DNA of 64,000 nucleotides from Niastella koreensis GR20-10 (lineage in GTDB: Bacteria; Bacteroidota; Bacteroidia; Chitinophagales; Chitinophagaceae), in NCBI RefSeq assembly GCF_000246855.1, contig NC_016609.1, positions 6,584,744 through 6,648,743 on the forward strand. Direction: 5' to 3'. Position 1 is the first letter of the stretch; every line of letters starts with the position of its first letter. The translations under genes and the position numbers were made by a program. A model generated the notes under the pieces. That model did no database searches and was not told where the DNA came from. It was given only the letters and a program-made list of their open reading frames with translations. Below are positions 39,394-53,868 of this stretch, in pieces.

Positions 39394-40005
39394 CTATTCG
39401 GGGAGCGGCGTAATCGGGTGTTCAAAAAACATCTCTATATCAGCATTGGAATTATAGTTGCGGAAAACGTGCTGACTGCGCATGGGTAATCGCAGCGTAA
39501 CGCCTTCGTCGAAGATGGCTTGCAGACTGTAATTTTTCAGGCGGCCGATCATGATGCGTCCGGCTACTTTTTCCAGTCCCGTGCGGGTATAGATGCCACA
39601 GAAAGGCTGTGCAAAGTTCACGTCCTGGTAAACATAAAAATCTGATTGATTATCGCGCATATATTCCTGCAACAGGAAATGAATAGTACCGGCATCGAGG
39701 TCAAGCATGTCGCAGGCCAGTAACAGCAGGTCATTATCGGGGTATTGCTGGTGAACGCTGAGCAGCCCTCTCAGCGGGCCTTCCACATCGGCATTATCCA
39801 CTACCAGCAACTCGGGTGAGATCTCTTCAACATAGGTATGCACCTGTTGCTCATTTATTGAATATACCACCGGCAGGTGAAACATAGCCAGCTTTTCGTG
39901 CATATGTTTGGCCCAGATGGTATTACGAATCGGCAACAACCCCTTATCGGAGCCCATGCGTTTGCTTTCGCCCCCGCATAAAATAACACCTAACAAGTTT
40001 TCCAT
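39394..40005 (-). CDS. mobA: Molybdenum cofactor guanylyltransferase
   Basis: Attaches GMP to molybdopterin to form the MGD cofactor needed by the nitrate reductase encoded upstream; cytoplasmic. 203 residues. The N-terminal nucleotide-binding motif GVILCGGESKRMGSDKGLL (about residues 6-24) and VDNADVEGPLRGLLSVHQ, LLLACDMLDLD (metal-binding Asp) are typical MobA. ATG at 40005. It is the last gene of the minus-strand nitrate island, converging with the MocR-type gene. Confidence 0.93.
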   Translation of the reverse strand: MENLLGVILCGGESKRMGSDKGLLPIRNTIWAKHMHEKLAMFHLPVVYSINEQQVHTYVEEISPELLVVDNADVEGPLRGLLSVHQQYPDNDLLLLACDMLDLDAGTIHFLLQEYMRDNQSDFYVYQDVNFAQPFCGIYTRTGLEKVAGRIMIGRLKNYSLQAIFDEGVTLRLPMRSQHVFRNYNSNADIEMFFEHPITPLPE

Positions 40006-40039: not shown

Positions 40040-40327
40040 TCAGTCCTGCATTTTGCGGTCTGCATGCCCCAGGCTTTTGCCGGGAGCCACCACATCACGC
40101 ACCAATTGCTTCACTTCTTTAATTTCAAGGAAACCGCCCGTTTCTTTGCGATCAAAAACCCTTTGCTCCCCGATGCAAATAGTATACCGGCCACTTACTT
40201 CACTGGGTTTTAATAACACCCCCTGCAAATCATCTGCAAAGGTGGTTAACAACTCCTGTGCCATATACGCAGCTCTGAGTAACCATCCGCATTTTGGACA
40301 ATATTCTATAGTTACAGTAGGTTTCAT
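40040..40327 (-). CDS. SelT/SelW/SelH-family thioredoxin-fold protein
   Basis: 95 residues. N-terminal MKPTVTIEYCPKCGWLLRAAYMAQEL is the classic Rdx/SelW entry, with a CxxC redox motif (CPKC, residues 10-13), and GRYTICIGEQRVFDRKETGGF matches the family's central strand. Cys replaces the selenocysteine found in animal homologues. ATG at 40327. It sits between mobA (34 bp gap) and the rubredoxin fusion gene within the nitrate island. A redox or chaperone role there is a guess from location only. Confidence 0.88.
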   Translation of the reverse strand: MKPTVTIEYCPKCGWLLRAAYMAQELLTTFADDLQGVLLKPSEVSGRYTICIGEQRVFDRKETGGFLEIKEVKQLVRDVVAPGKSLGHADRKMQD

Positions 40328-40516: not shown

Positions 40517-42004
40517 TTATGCTTTTGCCCCTTCGGCCTTTACTGCCTCAAATTCCGATTTTGCCGATTCACAAACCGGGCACTGATAAGTGGCGGGCAG
40601 TTGATCAAATGGGGTGCCGGCGGCAATGTCGTTTATGCTATCGCCATACTGTTCGTCATACACGGTAAAGCAGTGCTTACACTGATGTATAACGGGTACA
40701 TTCACCGGTGTTTTAGTGACGGTTTCCTGTACCACCTCCTGGCGGTATACATTATGCAGGATCTTGTCTGCCTCGGTAGTGAGTTCATAAAAATACTTAC
40801 ACAACGAAATCAGGTAAGCGCCCAGCTCTTCTTTCTGCACCGCACTTCTGAATAAAATATATTCGCGCGAGTTGGGATTGAAATCTTTCGTGTACATGAT
40901 ATCGTACCGGTTCATGGCCGCACTTTTGTTACGGCTTGCATTCTGCTGCCTGGCAATTACCACTGCTCCAAACAACCCAAACAGCCCCGATTTGGATTTT
41001 GTTTTGATAGCAAAACTTAGTCCGTGAGTACGCACATCATCTTTATCAAACTGACGAATAATATATCGTTTCAAATTCAGTCCTTCTTCATTCAGGTCCT
41101 CCACCTGCCAGTTCAGTTCATTGGCGGCATGGTGCACATTGATGCGGTACGTGTTCAACACGTATTCCCATGCGGTGCGGTCGTTTTGCGCAATACCTTT
41201 TACAATAAGCGATTTCCAGGGTGTAACGTACAACTGCCCTACTTTGGTTTTCAAACACAACGAAGCAATGTCTTTCAAAAATGAAACCGGGAAACATTCA
41301 TCGCGGCGATAAATACCTAACCATGTTTTTTCACCATAGCGGTTGAACCCCTCGTAATATGGCAACGCGAATTTGGGGATAGCCAGTTCGCTGCTAACCG
41401 GCTGCGTTACGAATAACTGTTTGCTGTGCACCGTTTCATACAACGCATCGCCATCCGTTAAGGTGGGATTAGCGATTATCGCTTCTTCCAGCAACCAGGT
41501 CATGCGGGGAATGTCGTCGGAATAGATCAACCCCTTCCAGCAATAAATAACCGTGGTCTTGGGAAAACGCACATATAAATACCAGTAATTATTTACCGGT
41601 GATGAAATAAAATTGATATTACCGGTAAAGAAGGGAATAAAACTCTGACTGGCATCAACCAGATTCAGTTTCATTTTTGGCCGGTAATCGAACAACCCCA
41701 GAATATCTTTATACACACCCTCGCTTAACCAATTGGCGTTTTGAAAAACATCTTCCGCTACATACGAGGTTAAAATATTGGAATACTCATCATGATTGGC
41801 TTCATAAAAAACACCCAGCTGGTCCAGCTCTTTGCGAAACTCTTTTTCGTTGGAGCTATCGGCCACAAAATACAATTGCTGGCGGTTCCCGAACTGTACC
41901 TGGTCAACACCACAACGTTCTGCCGCTTCCATCCAGGTATGCAAATCACCGGCTGCCATTATTCCGCCTGGAAGATTGATCTTTATATGATGATACTTTC
42001 GCAT
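40517..42004 (-). CDS. NirA/sulfite-reductase-like ferredoxin-half-domain protein fused to rubredoxin
   Basis: 495 residues from ATG 42004 (MRKYHHIKINLPGGIM); the longer upstream frame translates word repeats and is rejected. Residues about 5-80 (LPGGIMAAGDLHTWMEAAERCGVDQVQFGNRQQLYF) resemble the first nitrite/sulfite reductase ferredoxin-like half-domain, and about 245-300 (KTKVGQLYVTPWKSLIVKG) the second. The four cysteines that bind the 4Fe-4S/siroheme centre are absent, since no CxxxxxC...CxxxC pair exists. Residues about 438-485 are a rubredoxin (CKHC near 440 and CPVC near 475, with YDEQYGD and GTPFDQLPATYQCP). It lies between the nitrate reductase fusion and the SelW-like gene, so a dedicated electron carrier or assembly subunit for nitrate reductase is the best inference. 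Catalytic nitrite reduction is unlikely. Confidence 0.85.
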   Translation of the reverse strand: MRKYHHIKINLPGGIMAAGDLHTWMEAAERCGVDQVQFGNRQQLYFVADSSNEKEFRKELDQLGVFYEANHDEYSNILTSYVAEDVFQNANWLSEGVYKDILGLFDYRPKMKLNLVDASQSFIPFFTGNINFISSPVNNYWYLYVRFPKTTVIYCWKGLIYSDDIPRMTWLLEEAIIANPTLTDGDALYETVHSKQLFVTQPVSSELAIPKFALPYYEGFNRYGEKTWLGIYRRDECFPVSFLKDIASLCLKTKVGQLYVTPWKSLIVKGIAQNDRTAWEYVLNTYRINVHHAANELNWQVEDLNEEGLNLKRYIIRQFDKDDVRTHGLSFAIKTKSKSGLFGLFGAVVIARQQNASRNKSAAMNRYDIMYTKDFNPNSREYILFRSAVQKEELGAYLISLCKYFYELTTEADKILHNVYRQEVVQETVTKTPVNVPVIHQCKHCFTVYDEQYGDSINDIAAGTPFDQLPATYQCPVCESAKSEFEAVKAEGAKA

Positions 42005-42119: not shown

Positions 42120-45100
42120 CTACTTTGCAAGCACGTTGCTTGTTACTCCCGCTAAGGTTTCTTCTAAAATCCTTTGCACTTCCGGTCTGCATGATCCACA
42201 TCCAGTGCCCGCCCCTGTTGATGAACACAATTGCTTAAAGTCGGTACAACCTTCGTTGATCTTGTTCTTCAGGTTTTCACTGCCCACATTGTTGCAACTG
42301 CATACCAGCCTGCCTAATACCGGTTCGGCTTTTTTGCCGCTGCGTAATAATTGCAGGCGTTTTTCATTCAGCTCAATTTTGTTGGCAATGAGCTCCCTGA
42401 ATTCCTGGAACTCACTTTTATCACCAATTAATATAGCACCTACCAGGCGGTCCTGGTGAATGATACATTTTTTATAATACCGTTTTGCCTTATCCAGGAA
42501 AATGATCTCTTCATAATCATCATTGGGGCACTCAGGAATTCCTATACTGCACAGATCGAAGCCATGAATTTTAATAATGTTCATGAACAGGCTGCCTTTG
42601 TAGTAGCTGGCAATATCGCCTTGCAGATAGCGGGCCACCACATGCGCCTGTTGTTCGGCAGCCGCAGTAATGCCATATAACACGCCTTCAAATTCGGCAA
42701 TCTCTCCAATGGCAAATACATTCGGGTCGCTGGTTTGCAAACGTTCATTTACAATTACTCCGCGTTGACAATGCAAACCGGTTTCTTTGGCCAGCTCGAT
42801 GTTCGGAACTGTACCAATGGCAAATACCAGGGCATTACAATCGATCACCTTTCCGCTTTTCAGGCGAATGCCGGTTAATTCGGTACGGCCATAAAATAAC
42901 TGTACTTCATCATCATAATAGATATCGCAATTCTGGTCAACCATTTCTTCGTGTAAAAACTGGCTTCCCAACGGATCGAGCTGCCGGTCGAGGAAACGAG
43001 AAATGCGTTGGATGATGGTCACTTTTATGCCAACCTCGCGTAATGATGCTGCCAGCTCCAGCCCCAGTAATCCACCACCCACAATCACCACATGCCCATC
43101 GGAAGGCACATGGTTTTTAAATTCGTCGGCATCTGTACGGCTGCGCATGGTAAAGATCCCTTTTAATGAAGGAACATTACGCGGCATGGCTGCCCGGCTG
43201 CCTGTTGCCATCAACAACACATCGTAATAAGTAGTGCGACCCGTTGAATCGACCACGCATTTGTTCTCGCGGTCTATTTTCTCTATACTGACGCCTTTAT
43301 ATAATTTGATATTGTAACCAGGCTCTTCGGATTCTTTCATTTTGATCAGCTGCTCCCAGTTTTGGGTGCCGCTGATGTAATCGGGCAACATTACGCGATT
43401 GTAAAAAGGGAAATTCTCTTTGCTGAAGATCACCAGTTCATCTTCCTTATTCATTTCGCGGTACGATTTCACAAAACCAAACGCTCCGGCGCCAGCTCCG
43501 ATGATCACAATGCGCTGACGCGGCTTTTTATAGGGCGCTACCTGTACGGCACAGAATTTAAAATCCGGCTCCTTTGAGATGGGGTCTACCATCGCGCTGG
43601 TAACATTGTTTGCGCGGTTCAGATCACTGTTCAGGATCTTGCCCCAGTGCATGGGAATAAATACCACCCCTGGTTTTATGGTGGCCGACACCTGCGCCTT
43701 TACCCGTACTTCGCCCTGGCGCGAGCTTACCACTGCTATATCTCCATCCTTTAAATGCAGGCGGCGCGCATCGTCAGGGTGAATTTCCAGGAAGGACTGT
43801 GAAATATGTTGTTTCAGTTTATTTACCTTCCCGGTTTTGCTCATCGTATGCCATTGATCGCGAATACGGCCGGTAGTTAGAATGAACGGAAAATCGCCAT
43901 CCGGTTTTTCGCTGGTATTTTCATCCGGAACCGGGTGAATCACCGCTTTGGTGGAAGGCGTATAAAAAGTTTTGTCGGTAAACAAGCGTACAGTGCCCTG
44001 GCCGGTTTCCCCCTTTGGGTATGGCCATTGCACTGACCTCCTGTTTTGCAAAACACTATAATTTAATCCGCTGATATCGATGTTAGTGCCCTCGGTCAAT
44101 TGGGCATGCTCATCGTAAATGGCTGAGGCATTCTCAAAATCAAAACCATGATACCCCATCTTTTTCGCAAAGCGGCAAATGATCTCAGCATCGGGCAATG
44201 CTTCGCCGGGCGCATCAACGATCTTGTTCAAGTATGAAATGCGACGTTCCGAGTTGGTCATGGTGCCTTCTTTCTCCGTCCAGGAAGCGGCGGGCAGAAT
44301 CACGTCGGCATATTTCAGCGTTTCGGGTTTGTTGCTCATGTCCTGCACCACCACAAATTTCGCTTTCTTCAATCCTTCTTCAGCCACCCGCACATTGGGT
44401 AAACTAATCAGCGGGTTGGTGCAGATGATCCAGATCGCTTTCAGTTTGCCTTCGTTCAGGGCATCGAACATTTCCGTAGCCGTTAACCCGGGTTTGGGAG
44501 AAAGTTGTTTTCCGCCCCAGAACTTTTCTATTGCCGAGCGGTGTTCCGGATTGGCGAGATCGCGATGCGCAGGTAACATGTTCGACAACCCGCCTACTTC
44601 GCGGCCACCCATGGCATTCGGCTGCCCGGTCAATGAAAACGGGCCAGAACCGGGTTTGCCAATATGACCGGTAATGAGGTTGAGGTTTATTAAGCTGAGG
44701 TTTTTGTTCACCCCTACGGCACTTTGGTTCAACCCCATCGTCCACAAACTCATAAAGCCTTTGGCATTGCCGATGTGTTGCGCAGCCAGGATAATCAGGG
44801 CTTTATCAATGCCACAGATCGCGGCAGCTTCGTCGAGCGTTCTTTGAAAAACGATCTTTTTATATTGCTCATACCCTTCGGCATGGTTCTTTACAAAATC
44901 AAGATCTACATCGCCATTTTCTATCAGCAGGCGGCCAATAGCGTGGTTCAGCGTAATATCTGTTCCGGGGTTCAGTTGCAAATGCACATCGGCCAGTGAA
45001 CAGGTATCTGTTTTACGCGGATCGGCTACAATGATCTTTACATGCGGATTTGCCGCTTTATGCGCTTCTATCCTGCGCCATAAAATGGGATGGCACCAGG

Positions 45101-45644
45101 CCGGATTGGCGCCGGTTATAAAAAAACAATCTGCCAGTTCAATATCATCGTAACAACCGGGCACGCTGTCTTCGCCCAGTGCCATCTTATAGCCAGCCAC
45201 CGCACTGCTCATGCACAGCCGGGAGTTGGTGTCTATATTATTACTTCCTATAAATCCTTTGATGAGTTTATTAATCACATAGTACTCTTCGGTAAGGCAT
45301 TGGCCGGAAACATAAAAAGCAACAGAATCAGGGCCGAACTTATCAATGAAAGTTCTAAATACAGCAGCGGTACGGTCCAGCGCTTCATCCCACGATACAC
45401 GTTGCAGGGGCATATTCTTGTTATAGCGCATTTGCGGGTACAATAAGCGGTCGCTTTTATCATTCACAGTATAGTGCAGATTCATTCCCTTGCTACACAG
45501 CATGCCCCTGTTCACCGGGTGATTCTTATCCCCTTCCACCGTAATGTTCCCCTTCTTGTCTTTATTTACCACTATACCACAACCCACCCCGCAATAGCTG
45601 CAGGTAGTAGTCGCAGAACCGGAATGCTGATTATTCATACTCAT
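42120..45644 (-). CDS. nasA: Assimilatory nitrate reductase catalytic subunit fused to NirB/NasC-like flavoprotein and BFD domain
   Basis: 1174 residues from ATG 45644; upstream in-frame residues derive from repeat DNA, and an ATG two codons later (45638) is also possible. An N-terminal 4Fe-4S site (Cys15, 18, 22 and 50) leads a Mo-bis-MGD domain (to about 690) with the probable Mo ligand in TNSRLCMSSAV and the features GANPAWCHPILWRRIE, LNPGTDITLNHAIG and LTTGRIRDQWHTMSKTG. From about 705 a complete pyridine-nucleotide disulfide-type FAD domain begins (RIVIIGAGAGAFGF; VVIVGGGLLGLELAASL, NAD site; VFAIGEIAEF), ending in a BFD-like 2Fe-2S domain (CSCNN near 1113; TGCGSC). In Klebsiella-type systems NasA and the FAD subunit NasC are separate; here they are one chain. 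Cytoplasmic. Confidence 0.93.
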   Translation of the reverse strand: MSMNNQHSGSATTTCSYCGVGCGIVVNKDKKGNITVEGDKNHPVNRGMLCSKGMNLHYTVNDKSDRLLYPQMRYNKNMPLQRVSWDEALDRTAAVFRTFIDKFGPDSVAFYVSGQCLTEEYYVINKLIKGFIGSNNIDTNSRLCMSSAVAGYKMALGEDSVPGCYDDIELADCFFITGANPAWCHPILWRRIEAHKAANPHVKIIVADPRKTDTCSLADVHLQLNPGTDITLNHAIGRLLIENGDVDLDFVKNHAEGYEQYKKIVFQRTLDEAAAICGIDKALIILAAQHIGNAKGFMSLWTMGLNQSAVGVNKNLSLINLNLITGHIGKPGSGPFSLTGQPNAMGGREVGGLSNMLPAHRDLANPEHRSAIEKFWGGKQLSPKPGLTATEMFDALNEGKLKAIWIICTNPLISLPNVRVAEEGLKKAKFVVVQDMSNKPETLKYADVILPAASWTEKEGTMTNSERRISYLNKIVDAPGEALPDAEIICRFAKKMGYHGFDFENASAIYDEHAQLTEGTNIDISGLNYSVLQNRRSVQWPYPKGETGQGTVRLFTDKTFYTPSTKAVIHPVPDENTSEKPDGDFPFILTTGRIRDQWHTMSKTGKVNKLKQHISQSFLEIHPDDARRLHLKDGDIAVVSSRQGEVRVKAQVSATIKPGVVFIPMHWGKILNSDLNRANNVTSAMVDPISKEPDFKFCAVQVAPYKKPRQRIVIIGAGAGAFGFVKSYREMNKEDELVIFSKENFPFYNRVMLPDYISGTQNWEQLIKMKESEEPGYNIKLYKGVSIEKIDRENKCVVDSTGRTTYYDVLLMATGSRAAMPRNVPSLKGIFTMRSRTDADEFKNHVPSDGHVVIVGGGLLGLELAASLREVGIKVTIIQRISRFLDRQLDPLGSQFLHEEMVDQNCDIYYDDEVQLFYGRTELTGIRLKSGKVIDCNALVFAIGTVPNIELAKETGLHCQRGVIVNERLQTSDPNVFAIGEIAEFEGVLYGITAAAEQQAHVVARYLQGDIASYYKGSLFMNIIKIHGFDLCSIGIPECPNDDYEEIIFLDKAKRYYKKCIIHQDRLVGAILIGDKSEFQEFRELIANKIELNEKRLQLLRSGKKAEPVLGRLVCSCNNVGSENLKNKINEGCTDFKQLCSSTGAGTGCGSCRPEVQRILEETLAGVTSNVLAK

Positions 45645-45755
45645 GCTTTTGAAATGTTGAATATTGAACGCCGAATTTTGAATTCCGAAGTACAAGCCAA
45701 TATTCTCCTTCCCTTCGACATTCGACATTCAATATTTATTATTCTTCGGTTGTTT

Positions 45756-47042
45756 TTAGGCTGCTGCTACTACCGGCTCCAGTTCTTCTTTTGCTGCGCC
45801 CTTACGGAACCGGGTAATAAAGATGATAACTGAAACAACGATCACTATAATACCTATGTACCGGAATGCTTCTATATAAGTAATAGAGTCTGATTTAAAC
45901 AGGAACCCGAAGGCCATACCACCCAGGTTGCCACCTGCGCCTACAATACCGGCTACCAGACCTGCATTTTTTTCATTAATAAATGGAACGATGCCGTAAG
46001 TGGCGCCGTTTGCCATTTTCAGGAACAGGGCAAACAACAACATAGAGGCGATGGCCAGTACCAGGGTGCCGGCCTGTGCAAACACCAGCAGTCCCAAACC
46101 TTCGAGTATTAATACCGAGCCAAGCAACAGGCCTTTGCCGCGCATGCCATACTTGTTGCCTACTTTATCTGAAACTATACCACCCAATGCACGGGCAAAC
46201 AGGTTCATAAACCCAAAGATCCCTGCCCAAAAACCTGCGCTGCTTTGATTCAGTTTAAACGTATCTACAAAGTGCAGAGAGGCTACGTTATCGAAGGTGA
46301 TTTCCATGCCAAAACACATTCCATACGCCATCGCCAAAGCCCATACGCGCCAGTCACCCAACACAGACCAGTCAGTTTTTGATTTTGCACCTGCAGTACG
46401 GCCAATTTCTTTATAATTACCAGCAGGGGTATCTTTTGTGAATTTGTAATACAGGAAGGCCATGATCAGCATCATTACGCCAGGTACAATCATGGCATAA
46501 CGCCAGGCTTCGTGGGGGGTATAACCAAATCCTACAATGGCTGCAAAGATCAGGGGCATAACCATGTTGGTAACACCGCCGCCCAGGTTGCCCCAGCCAC
46601 CAGTAACCGCATTGGCAGTACCTTTAATTTTTGCGGCAAACATCATAGACGTATGAAACTGCGTAATAACAAATGAAGCGCCGATTACCCCAATAGCCAG
46701 GCGGAACAACAGAAAGGTCGTATAATCATGCGCCAGGCCCACCAAAAAAACCGGGACAGAACCCACCAGCAGCAACCGCACAGCAGTGATCCGCGGCCCC
46801 CAGGTATCGCAAAACCGGCCAATTACCAGCCGGGCTATAATGGTTGAAGACACGGAAGCAATAATGATATTCCCGATCTGTGCTTTTGTTAATCCGAGAT
46901 CGACACGAATGGTGGGCATCAGTGGCGCCAGGCCAAACCAGCCAAAAAAGCAAACAAAGAACATCAGCCAGGTAATATGAAACGTTTTCATTTGGATACC
47001 GCTGAGTGAGAATATTTTTAATTTATCGAGTGGTTGGTTCAT
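45756..47042 (-). CDS. narK: Nitrate/nitrite transporter of the major facilitator superfamily
   Basis: 428 residues with about 12 membrane helices. The nitrate-porter signatures are present twice: GGWGNLGGG (about residues 149-157) and GAGGNLGGM (about 369-377). FFVCFFGWFGLAPLMPTIRVDLGLTKAQIG is the typical NarK/NasA-type first helix region, and the conserved Arg is in LLFRLAIGVIGASFV. ATG at 47042; the later ATG at residue 18 (MKTFHITWL) is a possible alternative. It sits between the porin and nitrate reductase genes. Inner-membrane nitrate uptake, possibly with nitrite exchange. Confidence 0.95.
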   Translation of the reverse strand: MNQPLDKLKIFSLSGIQMKTFHITWLMFFVCFFGWFGLAPLMPTIRVDLGLTKAQIGNIIIASVSSTIIARLVIGRFCDTWGPRITAVRLLLVGSVPVFLVGLAHDYTTFLLFRLAIGVIGASFVITQFHTSMMFAAKIKGTANAVTGGWGNLGGGVTNMVMPLIFAAIVGFGYTPHEAWRYAMIVPGVMMLIMAFLYYKFTKDTPAGNYKEIGRTAGAKSKTDWSVLGDWRVWALAMAYGMCFGMEITFDNVASLHFVDTFKLNQSSAGFWAGIFGFMNLFARALGGIVSDKVGNKYGMRGKGLLLGSVLILEGLGLLVFAQAGTLVLAIASMLLFALFLKMANGATYGIVPFINEKNAGLVAGIVGAGGNLGGMAFGFLFKSDSITYIEAFRYIGIIVIVVSVIIFITRFRKGAAKEELEPVVAAA

Positions 47043-47173: not shown

Positions 47174-48721
47174 CTACTGTTTTTTGAAAAAGAAATCTGG
47201 TTTAATGTTAATCATCAGGTACGCCCAGTTGGCATTGTGCCTTGCCTGGTCCATGGTAGCTCTTTTAACATACTCGGTGCTGTTGTTCGCCTTCATGTAT
47301 GAGTACCCAAGCTCCAGGGTGGTGAATTTATTGAGTGAATAATTGGCTATAAAGTCAAACTCGTAGCCTAAATTCTTATCTATATTGGCTTTATCAGGAT
47401 CGCCTGCATTGGCCACATTCTGAGCCAGCATAAAATTGTGCGCATCCAGGCTTACAAAAAAACGGGTGGCCTGGTATTTAACCTTAAAATAAGCATCCTG
47501 CAAACCGCCCACGGGTGAACCTGTTCCTACATAATAGTAATCCATATAGCCCCAGAACCTGTGCGGTGTGCCATATAAGGGATCAAAGCGATGTGTTTCG
47601 GTAGCAGCCGTTGTGGTGCTGTTGCCTGATAAATATTCATAACCAGGACCAAAACTTATTTTACCTGATTGTAATGTGAGTGAGGCGGTGTAATGAGAAG
47701 CATTCAGGTCTTTTCCATCCCGGTCTTTTCCACTTTGAAAATAAGCACCTACCTGGAATGCGTTCTTCAATCCTGTTCCCTTACCAAACGAGCCGTTGAT
47801 GAGTAAACCATAAGTAAGGCGGCTGTTCACGCCTTTTACGTCGTACCTTCTGCCATACACATAACCGGTAGCAGCAGTGCCTGTTGAATCGAGGCGGTAT
47901 TTTGCGAAATCATCTTTAAAGAAAAGTCCGGCGAATTTCACCTGGCCGAACTTGCGGCTTACATACAGCATTTGCATGCTTTTGTATTGCTGGTTCATGC
48001 CATTGGTACTTACATTATTAGCCAGCACGGGCGTACCAGCCTTGCTGCTGGCCGCGCTGATAGCGCCATTAGGCGCCAGGGGTAATAGACCTGCCGGGGT
48101 AGCTACCAGCGTGCCCAGTGAATTGGTAACATAGGGAGGAACGTTGCCGGCGATATAACCGGTTCCGGTATAGCCAAACGCATCGGTGTTTTGGTTAAAT
48201 CCGGCGCCCAGGTCAACCTGCCAGCCATGATGCATTGCTTTTATCAACAATGCATCGTGACGGCGCCCTTGTTGTAACCAGTCTAAATCGCCTAATAACC
48301 GCGTATCGTCATATATTAATGCCTGACGGCCGATTTTAAAAGAAAGATTGTCGATACCTTTTGTTTTTATGGTGGTATCAGCCGCATTCATAAGCGTTAC
48401 TTCTGCCCAGGCTTCATGCACCATCAGTTTGTTTCCATCGGCATTATTGATCGTGGAAGCATCCTGTCCCCACACCCGAACGTCCTGAACAGAGAAATTG
48501 AAGTTTACACGGTCCCACTTGTAGCCAAAGATAAGGCGGGCGCGTTGAGAGGTTAAAAAAGCAGGGTCAGTACCTTTTGCATTGAGAGTGCCATAGCCAT
48601 CACGTACTTCGGTACGCGTGCGCAACTGTCCTGCCAGTGAAAATTGCGCAAAACTGTTAGCAGGCTTTCCCAGTAAATATGCTACTCCGGTTACTGCCAT
48701 GAAAATTAATTTTTTCCTCAT
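47174..48721 (-). CDS. Alginate-export-family outer-membrane porin
   Basis: 515 residues; signal peptide MRKKLIFMAVTGVAYLLGKPANSFA. The mature protein is a predicted large beta barrel of the Alginate_exp family: FSLAGQLRTRTEVRDGYG, SQRARLIFGYKWDRVNFNFSVQDVRVWGQD, FKIGRQALIYDDTRLLGDLDWLQQGRRHDALLIK, and alternating strands to a terminal aromatic-rich strand (WAYLMINIKPDFFF). In this setting it most likely lets nitrate or nitrite cross the outer membrane; alginate itself is unlikely. ATG at 48721. Two 16-bp direct repeats lie upstream (48878-48919). Confidence 0.88.
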   Translation of the reverse strand: MRKKLIFMAVTGVAYLLGKPANSFAQFSLAGQLRTRTEVRDGYGTLNAKGTDPAFLTSQRARLIFGYKWDRVNFNFSVQDVRVWGQDASTINNADGNKLMVHEAWAEVTLMNAADTTIKTKGIDNLSFKIGRQALIYDDTRLLGDLDWLQQGRRHDALLIKAMHHGWQVDLGAGFNQNTDAFGYTGTGYIAGNVPPYVTNSLGTLVATPAGLLPLAPNGAISAASSKAGTPVLANNVSTNGMNQQYKSMQMLYVSRKFGQVKFAGLFFKDDFAKYRLDSTGTAATGYVYGRRYDVKGVNSRLTYGLLINGSFGKGTGLKNAFQVGAYFQSGKDRDGKDLNASHYTASLTLQSGKISFGPGYEYLSGNSTTTAATETHRFDPLYGTPHRFWGYMDYYYVGTGSPVGGLQDAYFKVKYQATRFFVSLDAHNFMLAQNVANAGDPDKANIDKNLGYEFDFIANYSLNKFTTLELGYSYMKANNSTEYVKRATMDQARHNANWAYLMINIKPDFFFKKQ

Positions 48722-48934: not shown

Positions 48935-49285
48935 TTATTCTTCAATTCCTATATATACCAGGTCATTTTCTATTTTTACCGGATAGGTCTTTAAATCGCC
49001 GCAATCATCGCCACTCAAACATTTACCGGTAGCCAATGAGAAGGTTTTTTTGTGAAAGGGACATGCCACTTTGGGTTCGCTGTTTTGTGTTCCTATCATT
49101 CCCCGGCTTATGGCCATTTGCATGCGGTGCGGGCACATATTCTGGGTGGCATACCATTCGCCGCGGCGACTGAAATTGAAGAGCGCAATTTGTTCGTCGT
49201 GATACTTTACACAAACACCTCCGTTTTCAGGCACATCTGTAGTACGGCAGGCTAAAAACCAGGTAAGTACGTTTTCTTGGATCAT
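48935..49285 (-). CDS. nirD: Nitrite reductase small subunit (Rieske)
   Basis: 116 residues. Rieske 2Fe-2S ligands are CPH (Cys51, His53) and CPFH (Cys75, His78), as in NirD and Rieske-type ferredoxins. The N-terminus (TWFLACRTTDVPENGGVCVKYHDEQIALFN) and C-terminus (LKTYPVKIENDLVYIGI) match NirD. Works with NirB in NAD(P)H-dependent reduction of nitrite to ammonium in the cytoplasm. ATG at 49285. Separated from nirB by a 299-bp repeat-rich gap, so it may have its own promoter. Confidence 0.94.
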   Translation of the reverse strand: MIQENVLTWFLACRTTDVPENGGVCVKYHDEQIALFNFSRRGEWYATQNMCPHRMQMAISRGMIGTQNSEPKVACPFHKKTFSLATGKCLSGDDCGDLKTYPVKIENDLVYIGIEE

Positions 49286-49584: not shown

Positions 49585-52086
49585 CTACTTCCACTCCTTC
49601 GCTTTTTTCTGTTCCCGCATGGGTTCAAACTGAATGGAAGGATCTTTCTCTGCAGGCGCATTTACAAAATGCGAAAAACGTTTCCGGATCTCAGGATTCT
49701 CAACCGCTTCCTTCCATTCGCATTTGTAATTATCTACCAGCAATTGCATTTCTGCCTCCAGCTGTTCAGCTATGCCTAAGCTGTCATTCACTACTACATT
49801 TTTCAGATAATCTATCCCGCCTTCCATTTTATTCAACCACGTAGCAGTACGGGTTAAGGGGTCAGCGGTTTTTATATAGAACATCAAAAAGCGATCGATG
49901 TATTTAATACAGGTTTCTGAATCCAGATCGGTAGCCAGCAATAAGGCGTGTTGTGGTTTTGAACCGCCGTTTCCGCACACATACAGGTTCCAGCCTTTTT
50001 CGGTAGCAATAATGCCAAAGTCTTTGCTTTGCGCTTCGGCACATTCGCGAATACAACCCGATACAGCTGATTTCAATTTATGAGGCGCACGCAGGCCACG
50101 GTATCTCTCCTCGATCCGGATAGCGAAACTAACACTGTCGTGCAAACCAAACCGGCACCAGGTGCTGCCTACGCAGCTTTTTACCGTGCGTAAGGCTTTA
50201 CCATAAGCATGGCCGCTTTCGAAACCTGCCGCGATCAGTTCACTCCAGATTGCAGGCAGATCACTTACGTGTGCACCGAATAGATCGATACGCTGACCGC
50301 CGGTAATTTTTGTATAAAGATTGTATTTCTTAGCTACCTCTCCGATTACGATCAGTTTTTCAGGTGTAATTTCTCCACCGGGAATACGGGGCACTACTGA
50401 ATAGGTACCGCCCTTTTGAATGTTGGCTAAAAAGCGGTCGTTGCTGTCCTGCGCGGTATCGTTTCCTTTAGCCAGGATCATCTCATTCCACAAACTGGCC
50501 AAAATAGAGGCAACAGGAGGTTTACACAATTCGCAGCCATCGCCTGTACCCAGTTTATTCAACACTTCATCAAACGTCATCAGCTTATGCACTTTCACCA
50601 GGTCGTACAATTCCTGACGGCTGTAGTTAAAGTGTTCGCAGATTACATTGCGTACATATTTTCCCTGTGATTTAAGCGTATGGTTAATGAGGTCTTTTAC
50701 CATGGGAACGCAACCACCGCAACCGGTACCTGCTTTGGTACATTTCTTAATAGCGTCCATGGTTTCGTTGCCATCACATACCGCCTTGCAGATATCGCCT
50801 TTTGAAACGCTTTCGCAACTGCAGATCAGCGCATCATCGGGCAGGCTGGTAATACCGGCGCCGCCTTCGCCACCAGAACCGCCGCGGGCGCCAAGGATCA
50901 CATCCTCCGGATTGGGCGGCAATACCACTTTGTTCTTGCTGGTTTGCAGTAACATATTATAGGCTTCCGCATCACCCACCAGGATACCGCCTAATAAATA
51001 TTTTCCGTCGTTTGAAATATTAATGCGTTTGTAAACACCCTTCATGCTGTCTTCCAACACTATGCTTCGGCCTTCGGTATGCGCCACAAACGGATCACCA
51101 AAGCTGGCCACATCAACACCAATCAGTTTCAGCTTGGTGCTCATATCGAACCCGGTGAACGATTTGTCGCCGCCCATCAGGTTGGCAGCTACCACTTCGG
51201 CCATTTCATAACCGGGCGCCACCAAACCGTAGATCATTCCGCCATGCAAAGCACATTCGCCAATGGCAAAGATGAATGGATCGGCGGTTGTTAATTTATC
51301 GTTCACTACTATACCGCCACGGTGCCCGGTTTCCAAACCGGCCAGTTTCGCCAACTCATCGCGTGGTTTAATACCGGCAGAGATCACCAGCATGTCAACA
51401 TCCAGTTTGGTATCGTCCGAGAACTGCATACCATTTATAAACTGATCGCCCAGGATCTCAGACGTATTCTTACTTGTATGAATGGAAAGCCCCAGTGATT
51501 CCAGCTTTGCTTTTAAGATGTTGGAACCGGCTTCGTCAATTTGCCGGGGCATAAGACGGGGAGCAAATTCAATTACGTGGGTATTGGTAACACCCAGGTC
51601 TATCATGGCTTTAGCCGCTTCCAGACCCAGCAAACCGCCACCAATTACTGCACCGGTCTTTGCCTTTTTAGCATAGGCCGTCATCAGTTCCAGGTCCTCG
51701 ATAGTGCGGTAAATAAATACGCCTTCTTTTTCAACGCCGGGGATGGGCGGAACAAAGGCGGCTGAGCCGGTGGCCAGCACCAGGTAATCGTAAGATTCGG
51801 TAATACCGTGGTGAGAACGAACAGTTTTTTGTTCGCGATCTATATAAGAGATGGGATCTCCTAAATACAATTTGATATTTCTTTCGGCATACCAGTCAAG
51901 ACCTGCCATTGTGAGGTCTTCAGCTGTTTTACCAGCAAAGTATTCACTCAAATGAACGCGATCGTAAGCCGGGCGGGTTTCTTCACCAAAAACCACTAAT
52001 TCTATTTGCCCTGATTGGGCTTTGGCTGTTAGCTTTTCACAAAACTTGTATCCAACCATTCCATTGCCGATAACTACTATTTTCAT
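49585..52086 (-). CDS. nirB: NAD(P)H-dependent assimilatory nitrite reductase large subunit
   Basis: 833 residues, standard NirB length. The N-terminal FAD/NAD domain (MKIVVIGNGMVGYKFCEKL; GAVIGGGLLGLEAAKAM; IFAIGECALHGG) covers about 1-400. The BFD-like 2Fe-2S domain (CSCESVSKGDIC near 421; TGCGGC) is followed by a second cysteine pair, DGCELCKP. The nitrite/sulfite reductase ferredoxin half-domain and siroheme/4Fe-4S domain have SCVGSTWCRFG (near 635) and SGCIRECAEAQ (near 673), giving all four cluster cysteines. Cytoplasmic six-electron reduction of nitrite to ammonium. First gene of the minus-strand island; a 16-bp motif shared with the porin region lies at 52115-52130. Confidence 0.97.
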   Translation of the reverse strand: MKIVVIGNGMVGYKFCEKLTAKAQSGQIELVVFGEETRPAYDRVHLSEYFAGKTAEDLTMAGLDWYAERNIKLYLGDPISYIDREQKTVRSHHGITESYDYLVLATGSAAFVPPIPGVEKEGVFIYRTIEDLELMTAYAKKAKTGAVIGGGLLGLEAAKAMIDLGVTNTHVIEFAPRLMPRQIDEAGSNILKAKLESLGLSIHTSKNTSEILGDQFINGMQFSDDTKLDVDMLVISAGIKPRDELAKLAGLETGHRGGIVVNDKLTTADPFIFAIGECALHGGMIYGLVAPGYEMAEVVAANLMGGDKSFTGFDMSTKLKLIGVDVASFGDPFVAHTEGRSIVLEDSMKGVYKRINISNDGKYLLGGILVGDAEAYNMLLQTSKNKVVLPPNPEDVILGARGGSGGEGGAGITSLPDDALICSCESVSKGDICKAVCDGNETMDAIKKCTKAGTGCGGCVPMVKDLINHTLKSQGKYVRNVICEHFNYSRQELYDLVKVHKLMTFDEVLNKLGTGDGCELCKPPVASILASLWNEMILAKGNDTAQDSNDRFLANIQKGGTYSVVPRIPGGEITPEKLIVIGEVAKKYNLYTKITGGQRIDLFGAHVSDLPAIWSELIAAGFESGHAYGKALRTVKSCVGSTWCRFGLHDSVSFAIRIEERYRGLRAPHKLKSAVSGCIRECAEAQSKDFGIIATEKGWNLYVCGNGGSKPQHALLLATDLDSETCIKYIDRFLMFYIKTADPLTRTATWLNKMEGGIDYLKNVVVNDSLGIAEQLEAEMQLLVDNYKCEWKEAVENPEIRKRFSHFVNAPAEKDPSIQFEPMREQKKAKEWK

Positions 52087-52414: not shown

Positions 52415-53101
52415 GTGAAACGAAGTAAACATGGTTGTGATCTGAAGAGTTGCTTTTTATGCAAACTCTGCTCAAAGGAATGGCTTCCGGCGGTGGATGC
52501 GCATCGCCAGAACTTTCATGTAAATAAAGGTGAAGTGCTTTTTACCGAAGGCAGTGAAGTAACCGGTATATACTTTATATATAAAGGTACCTTCAAGGTT
52601 CATAAAAAATGGACAGAGGATAAAGAGCTGATCGTTCGCCTGGCCAGGAATGGCGCCATACTCGGCCATCGTGGTTTGGGTAATGATGTTTTTTATCCCG
52701 TATCGGCCACGGCTCTGGAGCCAAGTGAGGTATGCTTTATAGATATTGGCTTTTTTCAATCGACCCTTAAAGTGAACCCACAGTTCCTGTATGAACTGAT
52801 GATGTTCTTTGCCGGAGAACTGAAGGAGTCTGAAAAAAAGATGCGCAACCTGGCACATATGCCGGTTATTGGCCGGATTGCCCAGGCGTTGTTATCTATT
52901 CAGTCAACCTTTGGTACCACCCCGGAAGGGTTTCTTGATATAAACCTCAGCCGCCAGGACCTGGCCTCCTATACCGGCACTACGTATGAAACCGTATTCA
53001 GGCTCATGAATGAACTGGTGCAGGAAGGCAGCATTACTTTATCGGGCAAGAACATCTGTATAGTGGATGCCGATAAGCTGTTGGCACATATCAATGAATG
53101 A
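52415..53101 (+). CDS. Crp/Fnr-family regulator with N-terminal cysteine cluster
   Basis: 228 residues. The start is GTG at 52415; no in-frame ATG precedes the conserved domain. Cyclic-nucleotide-binding fold at about 30-145 (NKGEVLFTEGSEVTGIYFIYKGTFKVHKK) and C-terminal winged helix (LDINLSRQDLASYTGTTYETVFRLMNEL, about 173-201). The N-terminal segment CDLKSCFLCKLC (Cys8, 13, 16, 19) resembles the iron-sulfur ligand region of FNR, suggesting oxygen or NO sensing. It probably regulates the divergent nirB island. Stop overlaps the cobA start by 4 bp (ATGA), so the two are translationally coupled. Confidence 0.9.
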   Translation: MKRSKHGCDLKSCFLCKLCSKEWLPAVDAHRQNFHVNKGEVLFTEGSEVTGIYFIYKGTFKVHKKWTEDKELIVRLARNGAILGHRGLGNDVFYPVSATALEPSEVCFIDIGFFQSTLKVNPQFLYELMMFFAGELKESEKKMRNLAHMPVIGRIAQALLSIQSTFGTTPEGFLDINLSRQDLASYTGTTYETVFRLMNELVQEGSITLSGKNICIVDADKLLAHINE

Positions 53102-53868
53102 TCTCTTCTAATAAAATATTTTTAGTGGCTGTATTAACCGTAGAACCCGAATTAATAGTAGCAGGCGCCGGCGCCGGCGATCCGGAACTCATTACCCTGA
53201 AAGCATACAAACTTTTACAGGAAGTACCGGTTGTATTGTACGATAACCTGGTAAATAAGTCATTGCTCGATTATACCAAACCTGGTTGTGAAAACATTTA
53301 TGTAGGTAAGCTTCCCTATGGCGATTATACGCCGCAGGAACAAATACATGAATTGATAAAAGAAAAGGCTTTTTCAAAAGGCAGGGTATTGCGGTTAAAG
53401 GGCGGAGATCCTTTTATTTTTGGAAGAGGGTTTGAAGAAATATTGTTTGCCCGCCAACATGGAATAAAAACAACGTTCATTCCCGGTATTACCAGTATGC
53501 AGGCCAGTGGCTTGTACGACATTCCTTTAACCTTTCGTAATATCAGCGAAAGTATATGGGTAGTTACCGGTACTAAAAAAGATGGCTCTTTATCTGCCGA
53601 TCTGCAGCTGGCCATACAAAGCAAAGCCACCGTTGTTATTTATATGGGTATGAAAAAGCTGCCTGAAATTGCCAGCATATATATCGATAAGGGTTATGGT
53701 GATATGCCTGCTGCTATCATTCATTATGCGTCAACGCCGCAACATAAACTTGTCAGGAGCGCCATCAAAGACCTGCCACAGCTGGCGCTGGAACAACACA
53801 TAACTCATCCGGCGCTTATCATCATTGGTCCGGTTACAAATGCAGATTTATTGGCGGGCACCGAATAA
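53098..53868 (+). CDS. cobA: Uroporphyrinogen-III C-methyltransferase (SUMT)
   Basis: Methylates uroporphyrinogen III at C2 and C7 to precorrin-2, the first step to siroheme, the cofactor of NirB. 256 residues; the SUMT motifs are AGAGAGDPELITLKA (about 22-36), VLYDNLVNKSLLD, RLKGGDPFIFGRGFEE (about 99-114) and PGITSMQASGLYDIPLTFR. ATG at 53098 overlaps the crp stop; a shorter start cannot be excluded, as the first 17 residues are not conserved-looking. Co-transcription with the Crp/Fnr gene ties cofactor supply to nitrite reductase expression. Confidence 0.94.
   Translation: MISSNKIFLVAVLTVEPELIVAGAGAGDPELITLKAYKLLQEVPVVLYDNLVNKSLLDYTKPGCENIYVGKLPYGDYTPQEQIHELIKEKAFSKGRVLRLKGGDPFIFGRGFEEILFARQHGIKTTFIPGITSMQASGLYDIPLTFRNISESIWVVTGTKKDGSLSADLQLAIQSKATVVIYMGMKKLPEIASIYIDKGYGDMPAAIIHYASTPQHKLVRSAIKDLPQLALEQHITHPALIIIGPVTNADLLAGTE

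Follow-up and report, generated by a model that had tools for sequence, protein, structure and literature searches.

Gene content of the nitrate and nitrite island

The window analysed here, a stretch of 64,000 nucleotides from Niastella koreensis GR20-10, contains a nitrate/nitrite island whose genes lie on the minus strand in the order nirB, nirD, porin, narK, a fused nasA, the gene under study (hereafter Q), an Rdx/SelW-like gene and mobA. NirB (49585..52086) is, as the original prediction had stated, a complete siroheme nitrite reductase; it has 833 aa, the cysteine-quartet pattern and a match to the 4Fe-4S/siroheme domain PF01077 (E 6.6e-23), and it is followed by NirD, the nitrite reductase small subunit (48935..49285), by an outer membrane porin of the alginate-export type (47174..48721), recognised by Pfam between nirD and narK, and by a NarK-type nitrate/nitrite transporter (45756..47042). 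The nitrate reductase NasA (42120..45728; 1202 aa), the conserved upstream neighbour of Q, is fused to FAD/NAD (Pyr_redox_2), Rubredoxin_C and 2Fe-2S BFD modules, a fusion absent from the original prediction. Directly downstream of Q lies a gene for a SelT/W/H-like Rdx family protein with a CPKC motif (40040..40327), followed by one for a MobA-like molybdenum cofactor guanylyltransferase (39394..40005); these, like NirD, NarK and NasA, were recognised by Pfam. On the plus strand, an ORF with a profile match to uroporphyrinogen-III methyltransferase, a siroheme synthesis enzyme, occupies 53098..53868.

Among 80 related loci (described below), 60 carry a homologue of the porin, which may be a nitrate/nitrite outer membrane channel; homologues of the Rdx (CxxC) gene and of mobA, some of these short, occur in 25 and 33 loci, respectively.

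Q itself (40517..42004, minus strand) runs from an ATG at 42004 to a stop at 40517 and encodes 495 aa; an alternative TTG start farther upstream would give 537 aa. ORF, Pfam, AlphaFold2 and structure-matching results together describe a siroheme-less protein of the nitrite/sulfite reductase (NiR/SiR) fold fused to a rubredoxin. RefSeq names it simply "rubredoxin"; the closest named relatives, at 85-96% protein identity, are Niastella species. Q is the sole match to the rubredoxin model PF00301 at E ≤0.01 in this 9.03-Mb single-contig genome. A tblastn search of plasmids gave full-length matches in four Bacteroidota records, other records giving rubredoxin-sized pieces or nothing; the Q-type gene is again annotated as "rubredoxin" on the plasmids of Hymenobacter volaticus and Spirosoma oryzicola.

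A predicted reductase fold lacking the catalytic cysteines

The first 415 residues of Q are predicted to adopt a nitrite/sulfite reductase fold, with the rubredoxin C-terminal to this core. The NIR_SIR_ferr model (PF03460) matches Q with E 9.4e-8 (two stretches at E ≤1, one at E ≤0.01) and was found in 75/75 family members at E ≤0.01 and in 50/50 at E ≤1. The first half-domain, at approximately residues 3-68 (41801..41998), rests on Pfam and conservation and keeps R41-Q42 in 112/112 sequences; the second ferredoxin-like half-domain, at approximately residues 225-285 (41150..41332), has a TPWKS..K motif and was placed from a weak CobG match to residues 225-284 (E 0.03), conservation and the model. 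It is followed by the second S-domain, approximately residues 286-415 (40760..41149), the place of the cysteine quartet in the reductases, where conservation and pattern searches found no quartet in Q and a conserved HAxNELNW instead.

The missing quartet is a property of the whole family. PF01077 had no match in Q at E ≤1 and was found in 0/75 family members at E ≤0.01 and 0/50 at E ≤1. The quartet pattern was found N-terminal to the rubredoxin in 0/126 family sequences, a set that includes the window's Q and some genes reached twice (e.g. L013 and dL092), compared to 7/7 control reductases comprising five NirA proteins, the genome's own sulfite reductase and the window's NirB.

AlphaFold2 run on 75 aligned family sequences gave a model with a pLDDT of 86.4, and the 415-residue core alone, in which both half-domains are predicted, reached a pLDDT of 88.5 and a pTM of 0.84. 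The top Foldseek match of the core model was Mycobacterium tuberculosis NirA (1zj8; prob 1.00, E 5e-18, TM 0.55, rmsd 15.5 Å), and plant and E. coli-type sulfite and nitrite reductases came next; given aligned rmsd values of about 15-17 Å, the two halves may be arranged differently in Q or their arrangement mispredicted. When the core profile was searched against the sequences of solved structures, it returned NirA/SiRHP at E 0.8-1.4 only, with chance RecA matches alongside; among 50 members, CobG weakly matched eight and the CysI-type and NirA models three each, the best single match being to the CysI-type model (9e-8). Profile comparison of Q with four NirA proteins aligned one half-domain (probability 21%, E 0.001). 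Since no more than this one half-domain aligned and CobG matched more members than NirA, descent of Q from NirA is unsupported.

The loss of the cysteines, together with the presence of NirA near nasA in a clade lacking Q (see below), could be taken to mark Q as a resident NirA in decay. We consider this most improbable: open reading frames are found phylum-wide, the core residues R41, Q42, R234, K264, E296 and K312 are invariant in 112/112 sequences, which speaks against a decaying pseudogene, and CobG matches eight of the 50 members against three each for the CysI-type and NirA models. By sequence and predicted structure, then, Q is a NiR/SiR-like protein that lacks the metal-binding cysteines of the reductases, and neither a chance resemblance nor a relic.

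The C-terminal rubredoxin domain

The rubredoxin domain of Q (residues 440-488; 40541..40687), identified by Pfam, structure-sequence matching and conservation, carries C442, C445, C475 and C478. It matches PF00301 over residues 440-485 (E 3.9e-16) and rubredoxin 1bq8 (E 6e-10), and the C-terminal part of Q superimposes on solved rubredoxins at 1.0-1.4 Å. This four-cysteine (Cys4) domain is kept in 121/126 family sequences, and all 121 have both CxxC pairs; 116 of the 121 have full rubredoxin length, with 28-31 residues between the pairs. The original prediction thus holds for each domain that it described: the two ferredoxin-like half-domains, the absent quartet, the C-terminal rubredoxin with two CxxC pairs and the NiR-type fold, which it had called by motif and which the model and its top match to NirA now corroborate; an intact quartet in homologues, the finding that would have overturned it, was looked for in the 126 sequences and seen in none.

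The domain nevertheless departs from typical rubredoxins. Rubredoxins usually have Gly after the CxxC knuckles and Trp as the aromatic residue before the second pair, whereas in the Q family the positions following both knuckles mostly hold L/F and E/D, with Tyr ahead of the second pair. Five sequences have shortened domains, with 8, 8, 9, 15 and 21 residues between the CxxC pairs; four lineages, represented by L013, L076, L163 and L198, have CxxC-x8 to x21-CxxC in place of the full rubredoxin. When scanned alone, the shortened domains of L163 and L198 gave no PF00301 match at E ≤1. Such shortened spacing, and the missing PF00301 match of L163 and L198, would be odd for a strict electron carrier.

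Linkage of Q to nasA

Of 236 relatives found in a genome-contig scan, 80 were kept to analyse linkage, and in 76 of these Q lies downstream of nasA (its FAD/BFD part) on the same strand, so that the predicted linkage to nitrate reductase genes is indeed conserved. The Mo and FAD parts of NasA are in one ORF in 72 loci of the 80-relative set. With the start of Q taken as the nearest upstream ATG (or, in the 4/76 lacking such an ATG, as the alignment start), the gap between nasA and Q is ≤150 nt in 60/76 loci, with a median of 39.5 nt, overlap in 13 and a maximum of 1305 nt; in the window it is 115 nt. The four exceptions are one locus near a contig edge (L080) and three (L046, L048 and L050) with NasA elsewhere in the genome. 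These three, from the Pinibacter group, have a Q with intact rubredoxin away from nasA. In the L046 genome (G395, identical to G418 judging by NasA coordinates) there is also a Q linked to nasA, making the L046 copy a second one; the genomes of L048 and L050 were scanned for NasA only.

Two genomes separate Q from nirB: in G190 and G154, nirB is on another contig and Q is still near nasA, with one ORF between them in G190. Distance matrices for 27 loci, computed without a housekeeping control, showed Q tracking NasA (partial r 0.51) more than NirB (0.33) and diverging about 2.3 times as fast as NasA. The position of Q favours NasA over NirB as its partner.

Distribution of Q, NasA and NirB across the phylum

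A Q scan of 395 genomes of the phylum listed 123, of which 94 matched in the rubredoxin part only (best E 5e-13); with these set aside, 29 genomes had full-length Q. The Cys4 domain is present in 28 of these, from 16 genera and including two with a shortened domain (G190 and G391), the exception being G126. The corresponding scan for fused NasA gave 54 genomes at E ≤1e-90; removal of 21 other molybdoenzymes (≤46% identity, no fused module) left 33, and NirB was found in 28. The Cys4-bearing Q genomes and the NirB genomes are an identical set of 28, all of which have fused NasA, and five fused-NasA genomes (G008, G050, G155, G179 and G219) have neither Q nor NirB.

The Q-less, NirB-less operons (L156-L160) consist of narK, an intact nirA (CTGxxGC ... 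TGCPxSC), a flavoprotein-like ORF and fused nasA; the flavoprotein was recognised as CysJ-like by eye from two sequences (G219 and G008).

In a NasA tree built from 61 rows (56 distinct sequences), the 51 distinct NasA of Q-bearing genomes were separated from the five of Q-less genomes by a branch with 100/100 support. One change of Q therefore suffices there, and the Q-less genomes, being one clade, provide a single evolutionary contrast, which by itself does not show whether Q partners NasA or NirB. The NasA of G179 and of L079, each split between two reading frames, were left as read.

The original prediction had set Q apart from nitrite reduction on the grounds that NirB is complete. The identity of the 28 Cys4-bearing Q genomes with the 28 NirB genomes keeps a link of Q to the nitrite step in play. 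One such link would be a coupling of NasA to NirBD, in which Q, as a pseudo-nitrite-reductase docked between them, passes nitrite on or shares electrons. The identical genome sets, the possession of an intact-quartet NirA and no NirB by the five Q-less genomes, and the predicted nitrite reductase fold of the core all accord with it, but among NasA-bearing genomes the Q/NirB contrast comes down to one clade, nirB moves while Q stays near nasA, and Cys4-less relatives of Q persist in genomes that have no NirB-type match. We regard such coupling as unlikely.

Relatives lacking the Cys4 domain

The Cys4 domain is missing from five relatives of Q, in genomes of the same family as that of the window (G126, G427, G445, G447 and G465). 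These five group as one nested clade with 100/100 support, consistent with the domain having been lost once. In the stretches read, the Cys4-less Q-like ORFs (L161 and L193-L196) lie outside any nitrate operon. The open frame of the G126 gene begins 45 nt from a contig edge. Fused NasA had no match in any of the five genomes, of which G445 is 83% complete; G447 gave a 34% match to another molybdoenzyme, not to fused NasA. At least four of the five relatives keep 46 of the 53 conserved core positions. Because Cys4 is missing only where no fused NasA was found and the core is conserved, the metal domain appears to go with the nitrate pathway and the core to have a separate function. This clade is a natural experiment that splits the job of the NiR-like core from that of the metal site.

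The same clade bears on the idea that Q binds siroheme or a precursor without the 4Fe-4S cluster and acts as a carrier for NirB. Consistent with such a carrier are the fold, the half-domain residues R41-Q42, K264 and K269 conserved in the Q family, in regions that hold siroheme in the reductases, the weak matches of 8/50 members to CobG, a tetrapyrrole enzyme, the co-occurrence of Q with NirB, and the presence of the siroheme methyltransferase in three of the five Cys4-less genomes (G126, G447 and G465). Against it, G427 (98% complete) retains a Cys4-less relative although no match to uroporphyrinogen-III methyltransferase and no NIR_SIR domain (PF01077) was found there, and G445, which has PF01077, likewise gave no uroporphyrinogen-III methyltransferase match in its 83% complete assembly. 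NirB elsewhere functions without Q. A siroheme carrier therefore seems very unlikely.

A broader reading, which we think somewhat unlikely, is that the cofactor-stripped NiR/SiR fold has become a reusable non-catalytic module. With a rubredoxin, it would be a dedicated subunit tying the Bacteroidota NADH-nitrate reductase to NirBD; in genomes that lack NasA and NirB (and, in one case, siroheme synthesis), the conserved core without its rubredoxin would serve on its own in ligand binding or regulation.

Proposed role of Q

From sequence and models, our leading, if tentative, reading is that Q is a non-catalytic accessory protein of NasA/NirBD nitrate assimilation in the Bacteroidota, acting as an auxiliary redox subunit of NasA; overall we would put it at a little short of an even chance. 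Its parts differ in strength. That the NiR-like body of Q docks on NasA and has a role in the pathway is likely. That the rubredoxin site would then relay electrons one at a time, receiving them from the FAD module of NasA itself (which would be a relative of NADH:rubredoxin reductases) and so giving the nitrate-reducing centre an additional electron route or a buffer, is possible but open to real doubt. In support of a relay, the FAD module matches the NADH:flavorubredoxin reductase NorW (NF003437, E 3.6e-49), below the curated cut-off; NirB models, however, match this module better than NorW does.

The cofactor motifs of NasA, like the fast divergence of Q, also temper the leading reading. 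On the Q side, the 4Fe-4S and 2Fe-2S cysteines and the FAD motif are present in 51/51 sequences and the exact NAD motif in 48/51, and these motifs recur in the five Q-less NasA where readable, one N-terminus falling outside the frame read. NasA therefore has the motifs for NADH-to-nitrate transfer with or without Q, and Q is not a necessary link in the electron chain, so the electron carrier that the original prediction had proposed is not strictly needed. No Q-specific insertion of at least 4 columns, as a possible docking site, was found in Q-side NasA.

Ranking close behind the auxiliary redox subunit, and possible though less probable, is a factor that matures or protects NasA, with the Cys4 site and NiR-like body holding apo-NasA during Moco and Fe-S insertion or shielding it from oxygen or NO. 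The rapid divergence of Q, at about 2.3 times the rate of NasA, the retention of the metal site while its scaffold shrinks in four lineages, the motifs by which NasA needs no extra carrier, and the mobA and CxxC Rdx genes downstream of Q in the window, with homologues (some short) in 33/80 and 25/80 loci, would all suit such a factor. Its nearest functional precedents are the iron-binding CX2C protein FdhE of formate dehydrogenases and the hydrogenase rubredoxins HupI/HoxR. Opposing it, Q had no Pfam match to the FdhE or NarJ/TorD families at E ≤1, and fused NasA without Q exist. No FdhE/NarJ-class chaperone is known to have a NiR fold.

Assimilatory nitrate reductases are regarded as needing nothing beyond a Mo subunit and a flavin/iron-sulfur donor. 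In Q, probably an undescribed helper of the Bacteroidota nitrate reductase, a widespread lineage of this phylum keeps one more conserved component, hidden in annotation as "rubredoxin". Should Q prove to be a functional subunit, NasA from Bacteroidota may lack activity or be misinterpreted when it is purified or expressed in the absence of Q, and surveys that track nitrate assimilation by its genes overlook a marker.

Comparison with known systems

Among the literature matches listed, in a search whose scope excluded most subscription journals, titles and opening abstracts described no NiR-fold rubredoxin protein or function for one. Three Aquirufa descriptions place a rubredoxin in an operon with nitrate and nitrite reductase genes (PMC12528234, PMC11861422) or in a gene table with nitrate/nitrite reductase genes (PMC10821818).

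With the NirA/CysI reductases (1zj8, 2akj, 3b0g and 1aop), Q shares the predicted fold of its core (Foldseek E 5e-18 to 4e-13, TM 0.47-0.56) and, across the family, the NIR_SIR_ferr half-domains; it differs from them in lacking PF01077 and the cysteine quartet, in an identity of 10-14% and in its added rubredoxin. With rubredoxins (PF00301) it shares the four cysteines and, in 116/121 sequences, full length, but its domain has divergent knuckle residues, Tyr before the second pair and a fusion to the NiR fold.

Iron-binding CX2C or rubredoxin proteins that help to build or protect a metalloenzyme, namely FdhE, HupI/HoxR and RBD1/RubA, resemble Q in kind. FdhE serves formate dehydrogenases, and NarJ serves an assimilatory nitrate reductase of Paracoccus (PMC10609526); the hydrogenase rubredoxins HupI/HoxR and photosystem RBD1 are precedents for maturation or protection (PMC3772215). 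Q differs from FdhE in having no Pfam match to it. None of FdhE, HupI/HoxR and RBD1/RubA is known to have a NiR fold.

The assimilatory NADH-nitrate reductases of Bacillus (NasBC) and Klebsiella (NasA/NasC) are built from Mo, FAD and 2Fe-2S modules of the types present in fused NasA, and neither is known to have a Q-like subunit. The NCBIfam model for NasC matches fused NasA at 525 bits, short of the 1100 set as its cut-off. The suggestion that Bacillus NasB already carries a Q-type rubredoxin was rejected, as the B. subtilis control genome contained no PF00301 match. Bradyrhizobium requires the separate flavoprotein Flp to grow on nitrate, though not on nitrite, showing that NasC can be served by a donor that is a protein in its own right (PMC4724949).

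The flavorubredoxin system offers a further parallel. Like NorV, whose model matches residues 416-491 of Q, Q has a C-terminal rubredoxin on a large domain, and its partner NasA has a NorW-like FAD module; in contrast to NorV/NorW, Q has no flavodiiron core, and its partner is a molybdenum nitrate reductase.
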